64,000 nt of DNA, from positions 1 to 64,000 of the forward strand of contig CAINJJ010000050.1 in NCBI GenBank assembly GCA_903849645.1. Reading direction: 5' to 3'. The DNA comes from an uncultured Acidobacteriaceae bacterium. Its GTDB lineage: Bacteria > Acidobacteriota > Terriglobia > Terriglobales > Acidobacteriaceae. The notes beneath the pieces are model-generated. The model was not told where the DNA came from. It saw only the letters and a program-made list of their open reading frames with translations, and made no database searches. Positions 44,920-49,170 of the stretch are shown in pieces (positions within the stretch are counted from its first letter, which is position 1; each line of letters starts with the position of its first letter). Both the position numbers and the translations under genes were made by a program.

Positions 44920-45402
44920 TCAGGACTTGACGCTTTTCCCCAGCCCGCGCCCCATCACCCAGTCCACCGCAAACAGGCCCGGCCCAAAGACCAGCACCAG
45001 CAGAGCCGCAAACCAGAACGTGAACGGATCGGCCGCATAGAACTTGTCTGGCGCGGACAGCACGCCCAGAAAAGCCTCCCGGTCCGCCGTCCAATAGGCC
45101 ACCGTCATGTTCAGGAACAGCACCAGCGCCACCAATCGCGATCCCAGCCCCAGCGCCAGCAGAATCCCGCCCGCAAACTCCACCAGCGCCACAAACAGAG
45201 CCGTCATGCCAGGCGCGGGCAGATTCAACGAGGCAAAGAACTCCGTCACGTGTTGCAGGTTGTGCAGCTTGCCCCATCCAGTCTGCGCAAACTGCCATCC
45301 CCAGTAAAGCCGCACCAGCAGCAGCAAAGGGCTCTGCGCGTGATTGGCCAGAGCCGTGGCCCGTTTGCAGAAATCTCTTGCAACTTCGATCAGTTTATTC
45401 AT
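44920..45402 (-). CDS. DoxX-family membrane protein (bufferin-locus partner)
   Basis: LLLLVRLYWGWQFAQTGWGKLHNLQHVTEFFASLNLPAPGMTALFVALVEFAGGILLALGLGSRLVAL; overlaps the DUF2063 gene. Confidence 0.92.
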   Translation of the reverse strand: MNKLIEVARDFCKRATALANHAQSPLLLLVRLYWGWQFAQTGWGKLHNLQHVTEFFASLNLPAPGMTALFVALVEFAGGILLALGLGSRLVALVLFLNMTVAYWTADREAFLGVLSAPDKFYAADPFTFWFAALLVLVFGPGLFAVDWVMGRGLGKSVKS

Positions 45403-46309
45403 CTTCCCTTCCTGTCCGTTGGGGTTGCTCTTCACTGCTTGCTCTGCACAGCCAGCCGAGCTCCGCCCAGGTGGCAAACCACTCTCTCACCTTCTTTGGC
45501 CGGCGGCCCTCCGCCAGCTTTGACCCTTCAAACCCCGCTTCCAGTGCGGCTCCCAGCGTCAATCCTCTGCGCAGGGCGCTCAGGGTGCGATACTCCTCCG
45601 GCTCCATCCGCCGGTAATAGACCGACATCTCCACCCGGTGCGCCGCCAGCCAGGTAGCCCGTCGGCGCAGCCGAGGCAGCCTCATCGGCTCCATTGGAAC
45701 AGCCTCCCCGCGGACCCCGGCCTCACTTGCCTCGCGCTTCTGCCTGTCATGCAGTCCAAGCACCAGGTCGTCGGCCGGATGCTCCAGCGCCATCAACTGC
45801 ACATGGGGCTGCAAGCCAATCCGCGAATCCCCGCTCAGCGCCGCAACCTCATCCAGCGTCAGCGGCGTCAGCGCCTCCTGGTCAAACGCCTCCACAAAGG
45901 CCCACTCAATCCGCGCCACATCTACTGCCAGCCCGTGCCGCCGCCCGCCCCGCTCCGGGTGCGCCGCCAGCCAATCGGCAAGCTTGGACCCAAGGTTGCG
46001 CAGAGTGAATGACCGACTCGGATGCTCTGTAAGGTAGGCCACCGAAAGAGCCTCAAAGGCCCGTGCGCCAACTACCGCCTGCAGCGCGGGAAAATCCTCC
46101 GCCAGCGCCCCAAGCATGCGAAACCAGTACTGCCGGTTATAGATCTCCAGCCGCTCAAACGCGGTCAACCGGCTGTTTGGCGCAATGAACGAGCCCGCCA
46201 CCGCCTCCATCGCGCGGCCGTCCGGTGCGGTCTGCGCCATCGCATCGTCCGCTGTCAGAGGCATCATCACCGCCGCCGCCATCGCGCGTTGCAGAGTCTC
46301 CAGGTTCAT
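45395..46309 (-). CDS. bufC: HvfC/BufC-like (DUF2063) putative DNA-binding-domain/partner protein of MNIO enzyme
   Basis: LTAFERLEIYNRQYWFRMLGALAEDFPALQAVVGARAFEALSVAYLTEHPSRSFTLRNLGSKLADWL; translationally coupled to DUF692 gene. Confidence 0.9.
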   Translation of the reverse strand: MNLETLQRAMAAAVMMPLTADDAMAQTAPDGRAMEAVAGSFIAPNSRLTAFERLEIYNRQYWFRMLGALAEDFPALQAVVGARAFEALSVAYLTEHPSRSFTLRNLGSKLADWLAAHPERGGRRHGLAVDVARIEWAFVEAFDQEALTPLTLDEVAALSGDSRIGLQPHVQLMALEHPADDLVLGLHDRQKREASEAGVRGEAVPMEPMRLPRLRRRATWLAAHRVEMSVYYRRMEPEEYRTLSALRRGLTLGAALEAGFEGSKLAEGRRPKKVREWFATWAELGWLCRASSEEQPQRTGREDE

Positions 46310-47166
46310 CGCGCCGCCTCCGCGAGTTGCACTGTCTGCCGCGTCAGGTAGCGCTCCGCCTTCTTCGCCTCGGCATGCACCTCGTCAAAGCCCGGAATCC
46401 GGTCGTCCCACTCCAGCAGCGTTGGCGTCGGTCCGCAGCGCTCGATCGCCCGCGCATATAGGTCCCATACCGGGTCGATCACCGGATGGTCGTGCGTGTC
46501 CAGAATGTACTTCTCATAGTTCGAATGACCGGCAATGTGAATCTGCGCCACCCGATGCGCCGCTACCGCATTCACATACACCATCGGATCAAACTCGTGA
46601 TTCACGCTTGACACATAAATGTTGTTCACGTCCAGCAGAATCCCGCAGTCCGCCCGCTCCACCACTTCGTTCAGAAACTCCCACTCCGTCATCTCCGAGC
46701 CACTGAACGCCGCGTAGGAACTCACGTTCTCCACCGCTACCGGAATCTCCAGGAAGTCCTGCACCATGCGCACCCGCTCCACCGTGCGCTCCACCGCCTC
46801 CCACGTATAGGGCAGCGGCAGCAGGTCGTGCGTATAGGTGCCGTCCACGCTTCCCCAGCAGAGATGGTCGCTCAGCCACGGAGTCTTCGTCCGCCGCACC
46901 AGTTGCTTGAGCCGCCGCAGGTGCTCCGGGTCCGGGGCGGTCACCGAGCCAAAATACATTGACACCCCATGCTGCACCACCCGGTAGCGCTCCAGAATCT
47001 CGTCGAGCACCTTCAACGGCCGCCCCGCATCGATCATGAAGTTCTCCGAGATGATCTCGAACCAGTCCACCACCGGCTTCTTGTCGAAGATGTGCCGGTA
47101 GTGCGGAATCCGAAGTCCGATTCCGATGCCAAGGTCCTGATATCCGTTGAAGCGATTCCCGGCCAT
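46306..47166 (-). CDS. bufB: MNIO-family (DUF692) multinuclear non-heme iron oxidase, BufB/HvfB-like
   Basis: GIGLRIPHYRHIFDKKPVVDWFEIISENFM.., VVQHGVSMYFGSV, WLSDHLCWGS, VAVENVSSYAAF, LLDVNNIYVSSVNHEFDP, QIHIAGHSNYEKYILDTHDHPV. Confidence 0.94.
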   Translation of the reverse strand: MAGNRFNGYQDLGIGIGLRIPHYRHIFDKKPVVDWFEIISENFMIDAGRPLKVLDEILERYRVVQHGVSMYFGSVTAPDPEHLRRLKQLVRRTKTPWLSDHLCWGSVDGTYTHDLLPLPYTWEAVERTVERVRMVQDFLEIPVAVENVSSYAAFSGSEMTEWEFLNEVVERADCGILLDVNNIYVSSVNHEFDPMVYVNAVAAHRVAQIHIAGHSNYEKYILDTHDHPVIDPVWDLYARAIERCGPTPTLLEWDDRIPGFDEVHAEAKKAERYLTRQTVQLAEAAR

Positions 47167-47288: not shown

Positions 47289-47585
47289 TTAGATCGCGCT
47301 CGGCTTGGAGCCGTCGGTGGCGCAGCCGCCCTTGCCCTTGCAGCTGTTTTTGGCCTTGCAGCCGTTGTCGCCCGTCTTGCAGCCGCCCTGGCCCTTGCAG
47401 TCGTTCTTGCCCTTACAGGAGTGCTTTGAAGTGTCCTTGTCCTGGGCCGTATAGCGCAGGCCTGCCTTGGCCGCCTTCACCGTCGAGCCGTTGTGGTTCT
47501 GGGTGGACTGCGCCGCGACGGAGGTTCCGCCCATCAGGCCGGAGAGAGCTGCGGTCAGGAGCAATGCGTTGATCTGATTCTTCAT
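47289..47585 (-). CDS. Secreted Cys-rich bufferin-type RiPP precursor (BufA2-like)
   Basis: MKNQINALLLTAALSGLMGGTSVAAQ signal peptide, then ..SKHSCKGKNDCKGQGGCKTGDNGCKAKNSCKGKGGCATDGSKPSAI; immediately upstream of DUF692 gene. Confidence 0.88.
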   Translation of the reverse strand: MKNQINALLLTAALSGLMGGTSVAAQSTQNHNGSTVKAAKAGLRYTAQDKDTSKHSCKGKNDCKGQGGCKTGDNGCKAKNSCKGKGGCATDGSKPSAI

Positions 47586-47864
47586 GGTATTTTGACCTCG
47601 TTTGGGAAGTTGGGGGCGGATGCTCTCCGCCGGTTCGCTCACTGCATCGGGCCCCTCTGCGGTCCCGCGCTTCCGGTGTCATGCCCTATGGGAGTGTGTG
47701 TCCGCGGGAAAGGTTACAAGCGAAATCAGAAAGGCTCGAATTTCCATTTCCGTAGCACCACCCATCCGTTCAGCCGCACCGGAATGGCCTCGTCAAGGGC
47801 CTCTGAGCTAACCTGATCCTGCCCCCTCCGTTGAGGCGTGGTGATTGTCTGGAGGAGACCTGCC

Positions 47865-48299
47865 ATGAACCCCAAGGGATTGCGAGCCCTGAGCGGCGCA
47901 AGCCTGCTGATTGTCCTGCTCCAGAGCGCCTGCACCGCGGTGCTCACCATCAGCGGCATCCGGGTGGCCATCGGCCTCACCGCCCTGGCCGCGGCCAGCG
48001 GCATCTACGCCCCGGCCAAAGGCTTCCATCAGGACGCCATTCGCATCCCCATGCTCTGGCTGGCCACCATCGGCGCCCTGGTCAACCTCGCCGTCCTTGC
48101 CTGGATCTGGAAGCTCCGCGCCGCCCCCGCCGCGCAGTGGCGCAGGCGCGAACTCACGCCCCGCCAGAAGCGCTCGGAACGCCTCCAGGTTGCCCTGTCC
48201 GTTGTCACCCTGATTCTTGTGGGATTCGAAGTGTGGACCCATACCTTGGTCCACCGGACCGGCCCCCCGCCTGCTCCAGACGCTCAGCATCTTCGCTAG
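47865..48299 (+). CDS. Small multi-pass membrane hypothetical protein
   Basis: MNPKGLRALSGASLLIVLLQSACTAVLTISGIRVAIGLTALAAASGIY..; several hydrophobic segments. Confidence 0.7.
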   Translation: MNPKGLRALSGASLLIVLLQSACTAVLTISGIRVAIGLTALAAASGIYAPAKGFHQDAIRIPMLWLATIGALVNLAVLAWIWKLRAAPAAQWRRRELTPRQKRSERLQVALSVVTLILVGFEVWTHTLVHRTGPPPAPDAQHLR

Positions 48300-48544
48300 C
48301 CGGGGTCTTTGAGATCCAGTTCCCTGTCCAGCCGCGCGTGCAACCGTTCGCTGTAGCCCGCCGGCAGCTCAAACACCCGGTCGTCCGCCATCAGAACCAC
48401 AACGTTGCGCGTCGAGTCCAGCACCGCCGAGCAGATCTCGCACGTCTCCAGGTGCTTGTCGATGTCCGCGCGCAGGGCCGCATCCACCTCGCCATCGATA
48501 TAGGCCGAGATGTGCTCCCACACGTGTTTGCAGTCGATCTTCAT
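48296..48544 (-). CDS. Anti-sigma factor, zf-HC2 (ZAS-like)
   Basis: MKIDCKHVWEHISAYIDGEVDAALRADIDKHLETCEICSAVL; H-x3-C-x2-C arrangement. Confidence 0.9.
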   Translation of the reverse strand: MKIDCKHVWEHISAYIDGEVDAALRADIDKHLETCEICSAVLDSTRNVVVLMADDRVFELPAGYSERLHARLDRELDLKDPG

Positions 48545-49170
48545 TTGCCTAACCCAAACAGCCCTTTGCGCCGCGGCGCAAATCCCTTCAGTTGCGGAGC
48601 CAGCTCCCGCTGCAGCAGGGCCCGCGCCCGGTGCAGGCGGACCTTGACCGCCCCTTCTTGAATGCCCAGCGCCGCCGCGGTTTCGCGCACGTCCATCTCT
48701 TCGATGTCACGAAGCATCACAACGTTACGGTAAATCGCCGGAAGCCCCTCGATCGCCTTGCGCAGAATCGCGCCCAGTTCCTTCCGCTCCAGCTCTTCCA
48801 GCGGAATCTCCCGCCAGCTCGTCAAAATCGCCGGCGTGTAATCGCCGCTCTGCTCGTCGGTCTCCGCCTCCAGCGAGTCCTCCCGCCGGCTCGCCTGTTT
48901 GCGCAGCCGTCCCAGCCCCTCGTTGCGCGCAATCGACAACACCCACGTGCGAAACTGCGCATCGCCACGAAACAGGTGCAGGTTCTGATACACCTTGATC
49001 GCCGTCTCCTGCGCCGCATCCTCGGCCTCGGCTTCATTCTTCAAGAGGGAATAAAGCATGAAATAGATTCCGCGCTCCAGAGGCCGGATCAGGTCGTGAA
49101 ACAGGTGCTTCTCCCCCGCAAGGATGCGGCGGATGCACTCGGCCTCGAACTCGGGATTGGATGCGCTCAT
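48541..49170 (-). CDS. ECF RNA polymerase sigma factor
   Basis: CIRRILAGEKHLFHDLIRPLERGIYFMLYSLLKNEAEAEDAAQETAIKVYQNLHLFRGDAQFRTWVLSIARNEG.., region 4 IYRNVVMLRDIEEMDVRETAAALGIQEGAVKVRLHRARALL. Confidence 0.95.
   Translation of the reverse strand: MSASNPEFEAECIRRILAGEKHLFHDLIRPLERGIYFMLYSLLKNEAEAEDAAQETAIKVYQNLHLFRGDAQFRTWVLSIARNEGLGRLRKQASRREDSLEAETDEQSGDYTPAILTSWREIPLEELERKELGAILRKAIEGLPAIYRNVVMLRDIEEMDVRETAAALGIQEGAVKVRLHRARALLQRELAPQLKGFAPRRKGLFGLGK

Follow-up and report, generated by a model that had tools for sequence, protein, structure and literature searches.

The gene bufA lies on the minus strand at positions 47289..47585 of the window (the whole 64,000-nucleotide stretch that was analysed). 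Its open reading frame translates to a 98-amino-acid precursor, MKNQINALLLTAALSGLMGGTSVAAQ...HSCKGKNDCKGQGGCKTGDNGCKAKNSCKGKGGCATDGSKPSAI, and the plus strand of the same interval is interrupted by a stop. Judged by eye, the N terminus is a putative Sec-type signal peptide (MKNQINALLLTAALSGLMGGTSVAA, with predicted cleavage before Q; 47511..47585, minus strand), having a charged start, a hydrophobic stretch, and an AxA-like end. The core, HSCKGKNDCKGQGGCKTGDNGCKAKNSCKGKGGCATDG, has cysteines at positions 57, 63, 69, 76, 82, and 88, separated by 5, 5, 6, 5, and 5 residues. Lysine follows five of the six, and alanine follows the sixth. Half-unit 1 (CKGKNDCKGQGGC, residues 57-69, Cys1-Cys3; 47379..47417, minus strand) is joined by the linker KTGDNG (47361..47378, minus strand) to half-unit 2 (CKAKNSCKGKGGC, residues 76-88, Cys4-Cys6; 47322..47360, minus strand). 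The half-units are identical at 10 of 13 residues, which was matched in none of 20,000 full shuffles of the core and in 7 of 20,000 shuffles with the cysteines fixed. The six cysteines, their spacing, and the two 13-residue units described in the initial annotation are borne out, and the internal duplication that it proposed is supported as a pseudo-duplication. Among relatives, the core is nearly invariant (KHSCKGKNDCKGQGGCKSSDNGCKGKNSCKGKGGCATDGSK), and 83 of 93 compact domains have a 6-residue linker. The third position of the CKxKN motif is almost always glycine in relatives (CKGKN), and the alanine in CKAKN of the second bufA half is a minority variant. Because the cysteine pattern is conserved across related loci, it is not an accident of the bufA sequence. 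The feature is confirmed as real, well conserved, and beyond chance.

Three further genes form an operon with bufA on the same strand, with reading frames that overlap from bufB onward. The first, bufB (46306..47166), encodes an MNIO (DUF692) bufferin maturase (NF050167, 351.3 bits, cut-off 310; PF05114, E=4.5e-108). It overlaps by 4 bp with bufC (45395..46309), which encodes the DUF2063 partner of the MNIO (PF09836, 64 bits). The last encodes a DoxX-family membrane protein (44920..45402; PF07681, 72.5 bits; NF050144 HvfX, 57 bits, below the cut-off of 80). The gap between bufA and bufB showed neither a sigma-70 promoter nor a terminator. In most related loci bufB is directly downstream of the precursor gene, bufC adjoins bufB in most relatives, and most relatives keep the gene order. 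In the Acidobacteriaceae genome (4.5 Mb, 56 contigs) there is a single MNIO and a single Buf2 match, and DUF2282 is absent. In one related locus (L056), two differing compact bufA-like precursor frames occur together with a sigma/anti-sigma pair and bufB.

The best family for bufA was NF050166 (BufA2), with E=5.4e-8 and 32.9 bits, short of the curated 60-bit cut-off. Close relatives of bufA scored 37-48 bits, and canonical Acidobacteriota members scored 62-70 bits. Since bufA is below the cut-off, we file it as a divergent Buf2-like variant and not as a certified BufA2 equivalog. As in Buf2, six (or twelve tandem) cysteines follow the signal peptide, and the cluster encodes MNIO, DUF2063, and DoxX proteins, its BufB scoring higher than the MNIO_BufB cut-off. 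Relatives of the precursor also adjoin BufB and BufC. The precursor has no Pfam match to PF10048, which marks Buf1/DUF2282, and its motifs are C-K only, with none of the five-residue EGKCG motifs of the Buf_EGKCG/oxazolin group. JUQZ, lactococcin 972, and WGxxGxxG gave weak matches below cut-off and were rejected as families.

We compared bufA with canonical Buf2 precursors from Acidobacteriota (L082-L091) and Pseudomonadota (L175-L179). They share C-x-G-x-N-x-C and a second N-x-C-K-G with bufA, but their second half has no third cysteine or GGC end, and Cys6 is displaced further on. This makes bufA a compact Buf2 variant. Buf2/BufA2 proteins in a published survey resemble it in having a signal peptide, six cysteines, the CxGxNxCKGxG core twice, and bufB-bufC-doxX; they have 6 cysteines (90%) or 12 in tandem (PMC12452194). 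However, the second half of bufA is compact and ends in GGC with Cys6 there, whereas canonical Buf2 has GW or GF and then Cys6 several residues on (13-14 after Cys5 in Acidobacteriota members). The bufA set also differs from canonical Buf2 in its linked ECF sigma/zf-HC2 anti-sigma pair and in its 4-Cys and three-domain relatives. A tblastn search of plasmids with the bufA precursor found no match, whereas searching with a canonical Buf2 sequence gave 15 plasmid records; five of these served as an outgroup.

Other known systems share some of these features. Like the bufA system, the Cys-Lys captophorins have multiple Cys-Lys motifs, an MNIO with Asp at the FonB-Phe250 site, and a DUF2063 partner (PMC13097082). 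Buf1/DUF2282 of Caulobacter vibrioides has the same cluster type, but it has four cysteines, in a layout that resembles the 4-Cys relatives of bufA, and a DUF2282 domain. The Buf1 proteins beside Buf2 genes in L175 and L177 have [KQ]NDCKAG at a central cysteine. The Buf_EGKCG group (oxazolin, fontiphorin, and bulbicupramide) also has repeated Lys/Cys motifs modified by an MNIO and DUF2063 protein, but with lysine before the cysteine, where bufA has it after, and with a five-residue repeat whose number varies freely. PMC8692599 describes a DUF692-linked precursor with six cysteines and suggests a metal role for it, and the 'Cys-Lys' precursor group has been named (PMC13097082). The available portion of PMC13097082 includes an AlphaFold model of BufA2B2C2 and gives no mapping of the modified cysteines of the Cys-Lys group, and the survey states that Buf2 modifications are not chemically identified (PMC12452194). 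Because 6- and 12-Cys Buf2 proteins and the Cys-Lys group are already published, the basic bufA finding is not new. What is new here, and useful, is the compact Buf2 form, a whole-domain rule for copy number, an unequal cysteine pattern from which modification of C63 and C82 is predicted, and the linked ECF switch.

To survey relatives we scanned GTDB genomes, which gave 356 relatives, and 80 loci were kept. By title, nearly all are from Acidobacteriota and a few from Verrucomicrobiota. In the window's phylum, BufA2 family matches occurred in 31 of 297 genomes and matches to a compact-core profile in 50 of 396; the phylum of the Spartobacteria record L077 had matches in 11 of 289 genomes.

The six cysteines are not followed by lysine equally often. 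In 93 compact domains, lysine follows Cys2 and Cys5 in 93/93 each, but it follows Cys1 in 84/92, Cys3 in 74/87, Cys4 in 53/85, and Cys6 in 8/93. In canonical Buf2, lysine follows Cys2 in 8 of 11. Cysteine losses in compact domains are confined to Cys3 and Cys4; one row that appeared to lack Cys1 (-23456) was a mis-paired stretch of L135. Both Cys3 and Cys4 are absent from 12 rows (12 sampled genomes), which group as a single supported clade on the MNIO tree (99/89). The two are also missing together from one domain each of L101 and L135 and from the two domains of L152. Loss of Cys4 alone occurs in L106, L135, and L156. The 4-Cys clade retains its MNIO, and most of its members retain the promoter motif described below. 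Cys3 and Cys4 are dispensable in relatives, and the six cysteines are unequal. Because Cys3 and Cys4 are neighbours, their joint loss could be one short deletion. Losses of Cys4 alone leave Cys3 without a partner and so weaken the case for an obligatory Cys3-Cys4 disulphide.

After loss of Cys3 and Cys4, the remaining layout is C1-C2-C5-C6, which matches Buf1. In Buf1, the outer cysteine pair forms a disulphide and the central two cysteines are modified (PMC12452194). By analogy, we infer a Cys1/Cys6 disulphide in bufA. An AlphaFold2 model of the precursor with 29 relatives had a pLDDT of 49.7 and a pTM of 0.15, and because of this low confidence no cysteine pairing was read from it.

The MNIO bears on which cysteines are modified. 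BufB has LLEWDD where 3bww of H. somni has LLERDF, which places Asp at the FonB-Phe250 site, and Asp is at this site in 116 of 123 related open reading frames. This Phe-to-Asp replacement is reported for the MNIOs of the Cys-Lys captophorins, in which the modelled Asp contacts the substrate lysine (PMC13097082). That contact ties the lysine after a cysteine to recognition, and it speaks for modification at Cys2 and Cys5. With the invariant lysines, this suggests that Cys2 (C63, in N-D-C-K-G; 47397..47399, minus strand) and Cys5 (C82, in N-S-C-K-G; 47340..47342, minus strand) are likely to be the modified residues, predicted to become thiooxazoles. The initial annotation had proposed two equivalent sites per peptide. 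Two modification sites are indeed likely, but the six cysteines are not equivalent, given their unequal pairing with lysine and the loss of Cys3 and Cys4 in several relatives.

The hallmarks of bufferins and captophorins are cysteines converted to 5-thiooxazoles (-4 Da per site, absorbing at ~305 nm), copper binding, and protection against copper stress. The best explanation for bufA, which we consider fairly probable, is that it encodes a Buf2-type bufferin (a Cys-Lys captophorin) in which C63 and C82 become thiooxazoles, forming one Cu(I)-buffering domain made from a sigma-switched operon. The initial annotation's view of bufA as a DUF692 (MNIO) precursor with a likely metal role is supported.

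Because five of the six bufA cysteines precede lysine, more than two could be modified. Taken furthest, every such cysteine would become a thiooxazole, and the peptide would be a multi-site copper sponge with no defined site. Every repeat cysteine of EGKCG peptides is modified (PMC13097082; PMC12538549), and some relatives from the Verrucomicrobiota search have extra C-K-G-K-x-x hexads beside the domain. However, the lysines after Cys1, Cys3, and Cys4 are often replaced and those after Cys2 and Cys5 never are in compact domains, and 4-Cys relatives do without two of the five sites. We therefore regard a sponge as rather unlikely.

The 10/13 identity of the halves and the invariant N-x-C-K-G in both could also mean that the 13-residue halves are equivalent modules that work independently, both being modified and each holding its own metal ion (2:1). 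The initial annotation had treated the 13-residue unit as such a module, whose copy number should vary among homologues. We took a census of 113 distinct related precursors, in which the domains of L101, L135, L152, L154, and L155 were counted by hand; the L154 sequence is cut at its N terminus, which makes its count uncertain. Copies change by the whole 6-Cys domain: most precursors have a single domain, at least a dozen have two, and three are present in L133. None of the 113 has one or three half-units. Because copy number shifts by whole domains, the evolving unit is the 6-Cys domain, with loose hexads, and not the 13-residue half, and the independent-module claim was rejected on this census. 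The two halves appear to be one pseudo-symmetric domain. Two further observations argue against separate modules: the halves are unlike each other in canonical Buf2, and the dispensable Cys3 and Cys4 sit where the halves meet, so that the remaining Cys1/Cys6 pair spans both. Two independent modules are thus quite improbable, and one shared metal site is at least as plausible as two equivalent sites per peptide.

The least credible alternative, an unmodified metallothionein-like peptide beside an MNIO that acts on another substrate, fits the richness of bufA in cysteine and the Buf2 genes that stand away from MNIO genes elsewhere (PMC12452194), but it is very improbable here because bufB directly follows the precursor gene in most related loci, the genome has a single MNIO and a single precursor, and the MNIO is of the matching Cys-Lys type.

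Some variant architectures were seen among the relatives. L133 (G346:C105) has three nearly identical 6-Cys domains (18 domain cysteines), apparently from a recent tandem amplification, and a lipoprotein-like cysteine after its signal region. In some relatives additional C-x5-C hexads occur outside the domain. Extra C-K-G-K-x-x or CKGPEGCG hexads lie beside the 6-Cys domain in L169-L174, L109, L154, and L104, and L173 has four CKGKDx hexads in a row before it.

Upstream of bufA on the same strand are genes for an ECF sigma factor (48541..49170; PF04542/PF08281) and an 82-amino-acid zf-HC2 (HxxxCxxC) anti-sigma factor (48296..48544; PF13490, 51.7 bits; RsrA-like TIGR03988, 36 bits, below cut-off). 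A small membrane protein gene (47865..48299, plus strand) is convergent with the pair and travels with it; its product has no Pfam match above cut-off. Each of the three was matched in 44 loci. Among the loci, this set (window 47838-49170) is found upstream on the same strand, upstream and divergent, or downstream of DoxX. In the survey, sigma genes are described only with Buf1 clusters (PMC12452194), whereas here the pair accompanies Buf2. On a plasmid of Asticcacaulis excentricus (L177), Buf1 and Buf2 sets lie back to back, and a sigma factor and NrsF follow the Buf2 set.

An ECF-type promoter-like element (TGTAACCTTT...ACTCCCAT; 47688..47718, minus strand) starts 133 nt upstream of the bufA start and is conserved in relatives. 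In many loci the region about 90-250 nt upstream of bufA contains a TGTAAC-CTTT ... [AG][CG]TC element, and GTAAC occurs in 59 of 80 upstream regions, compared with 21 expected from shuffles. Among loci with long flanks, the motif accompanies a linked sigma factor (22/13 versus 5/19; Fisher p=0.0017, with relatedness uncorrected). In L022, L036, L057, and L071, each divergent sigma gene carries an element of its own, a pattern that would be expected if the sigma factor were autoregulated. No such element was found before the window's own sigma gene in the stretch examined. The linked ECF sigma factor probably controls bufA-bufB-bufC-doxX.

Under the preferred reading, a two-thiooxazole copper buffer, metal or thiol stress would cause the zinc-finger anti-sigma factor to release the ECF sigma factor, which would turn on bufA-bufB-bufC-doxX. 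In the cytoplasm, BufB and BufC would turn the cysteines of the two N-x-C-K-G motifs, Cys2 (C63) and Cys5 (C82), into 5-thiooxazoles, with the BufB Asp beside the catalytic Asp reading the lysine after the target cysteine. The modified peptide would then be exported by Sec and lose its signal peptide. Cys1/Cys6, and perhaps Cys3/Cys4, may form disulphides, and the two thiooxazole thiols would hold Cu(I) in the periplasm. A more specific proposal, which we advance tentatively and at somewhat less than even odds, is that these precursors form a distinct pseudo-symmetric Buf2 subfamily of Acidobacteriota and Verrucomicrobiota, with an ECF/zinc anti-sigma switch, thiooxazoles only at Cys2 and Cys5, and one copper site across the halves; the 4-Cys relatives would be its minimal copper core.

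With two likely cysteines named, natural variation makes the question of Buf2 modification testable with a few point variants, and the natural 4-, 6-, 12-, and 18-Cys forms could be used to count copper per domain. The sigma link suggests that an ECF sigma/zinc anti-sigma pair controls the Buf2 operons of soil Acidobacteriota. A separate observation concerns L153 (G246:C243, minus strand), in which a long open frame, spanning 806 residues of the analysed stretch, has a divergent Buf2-like cysteine segment, HACMGLNSC...NECKSLGSC, near its C-terminal end. This long frame is possibly a fusion with a Buf2-like segment.
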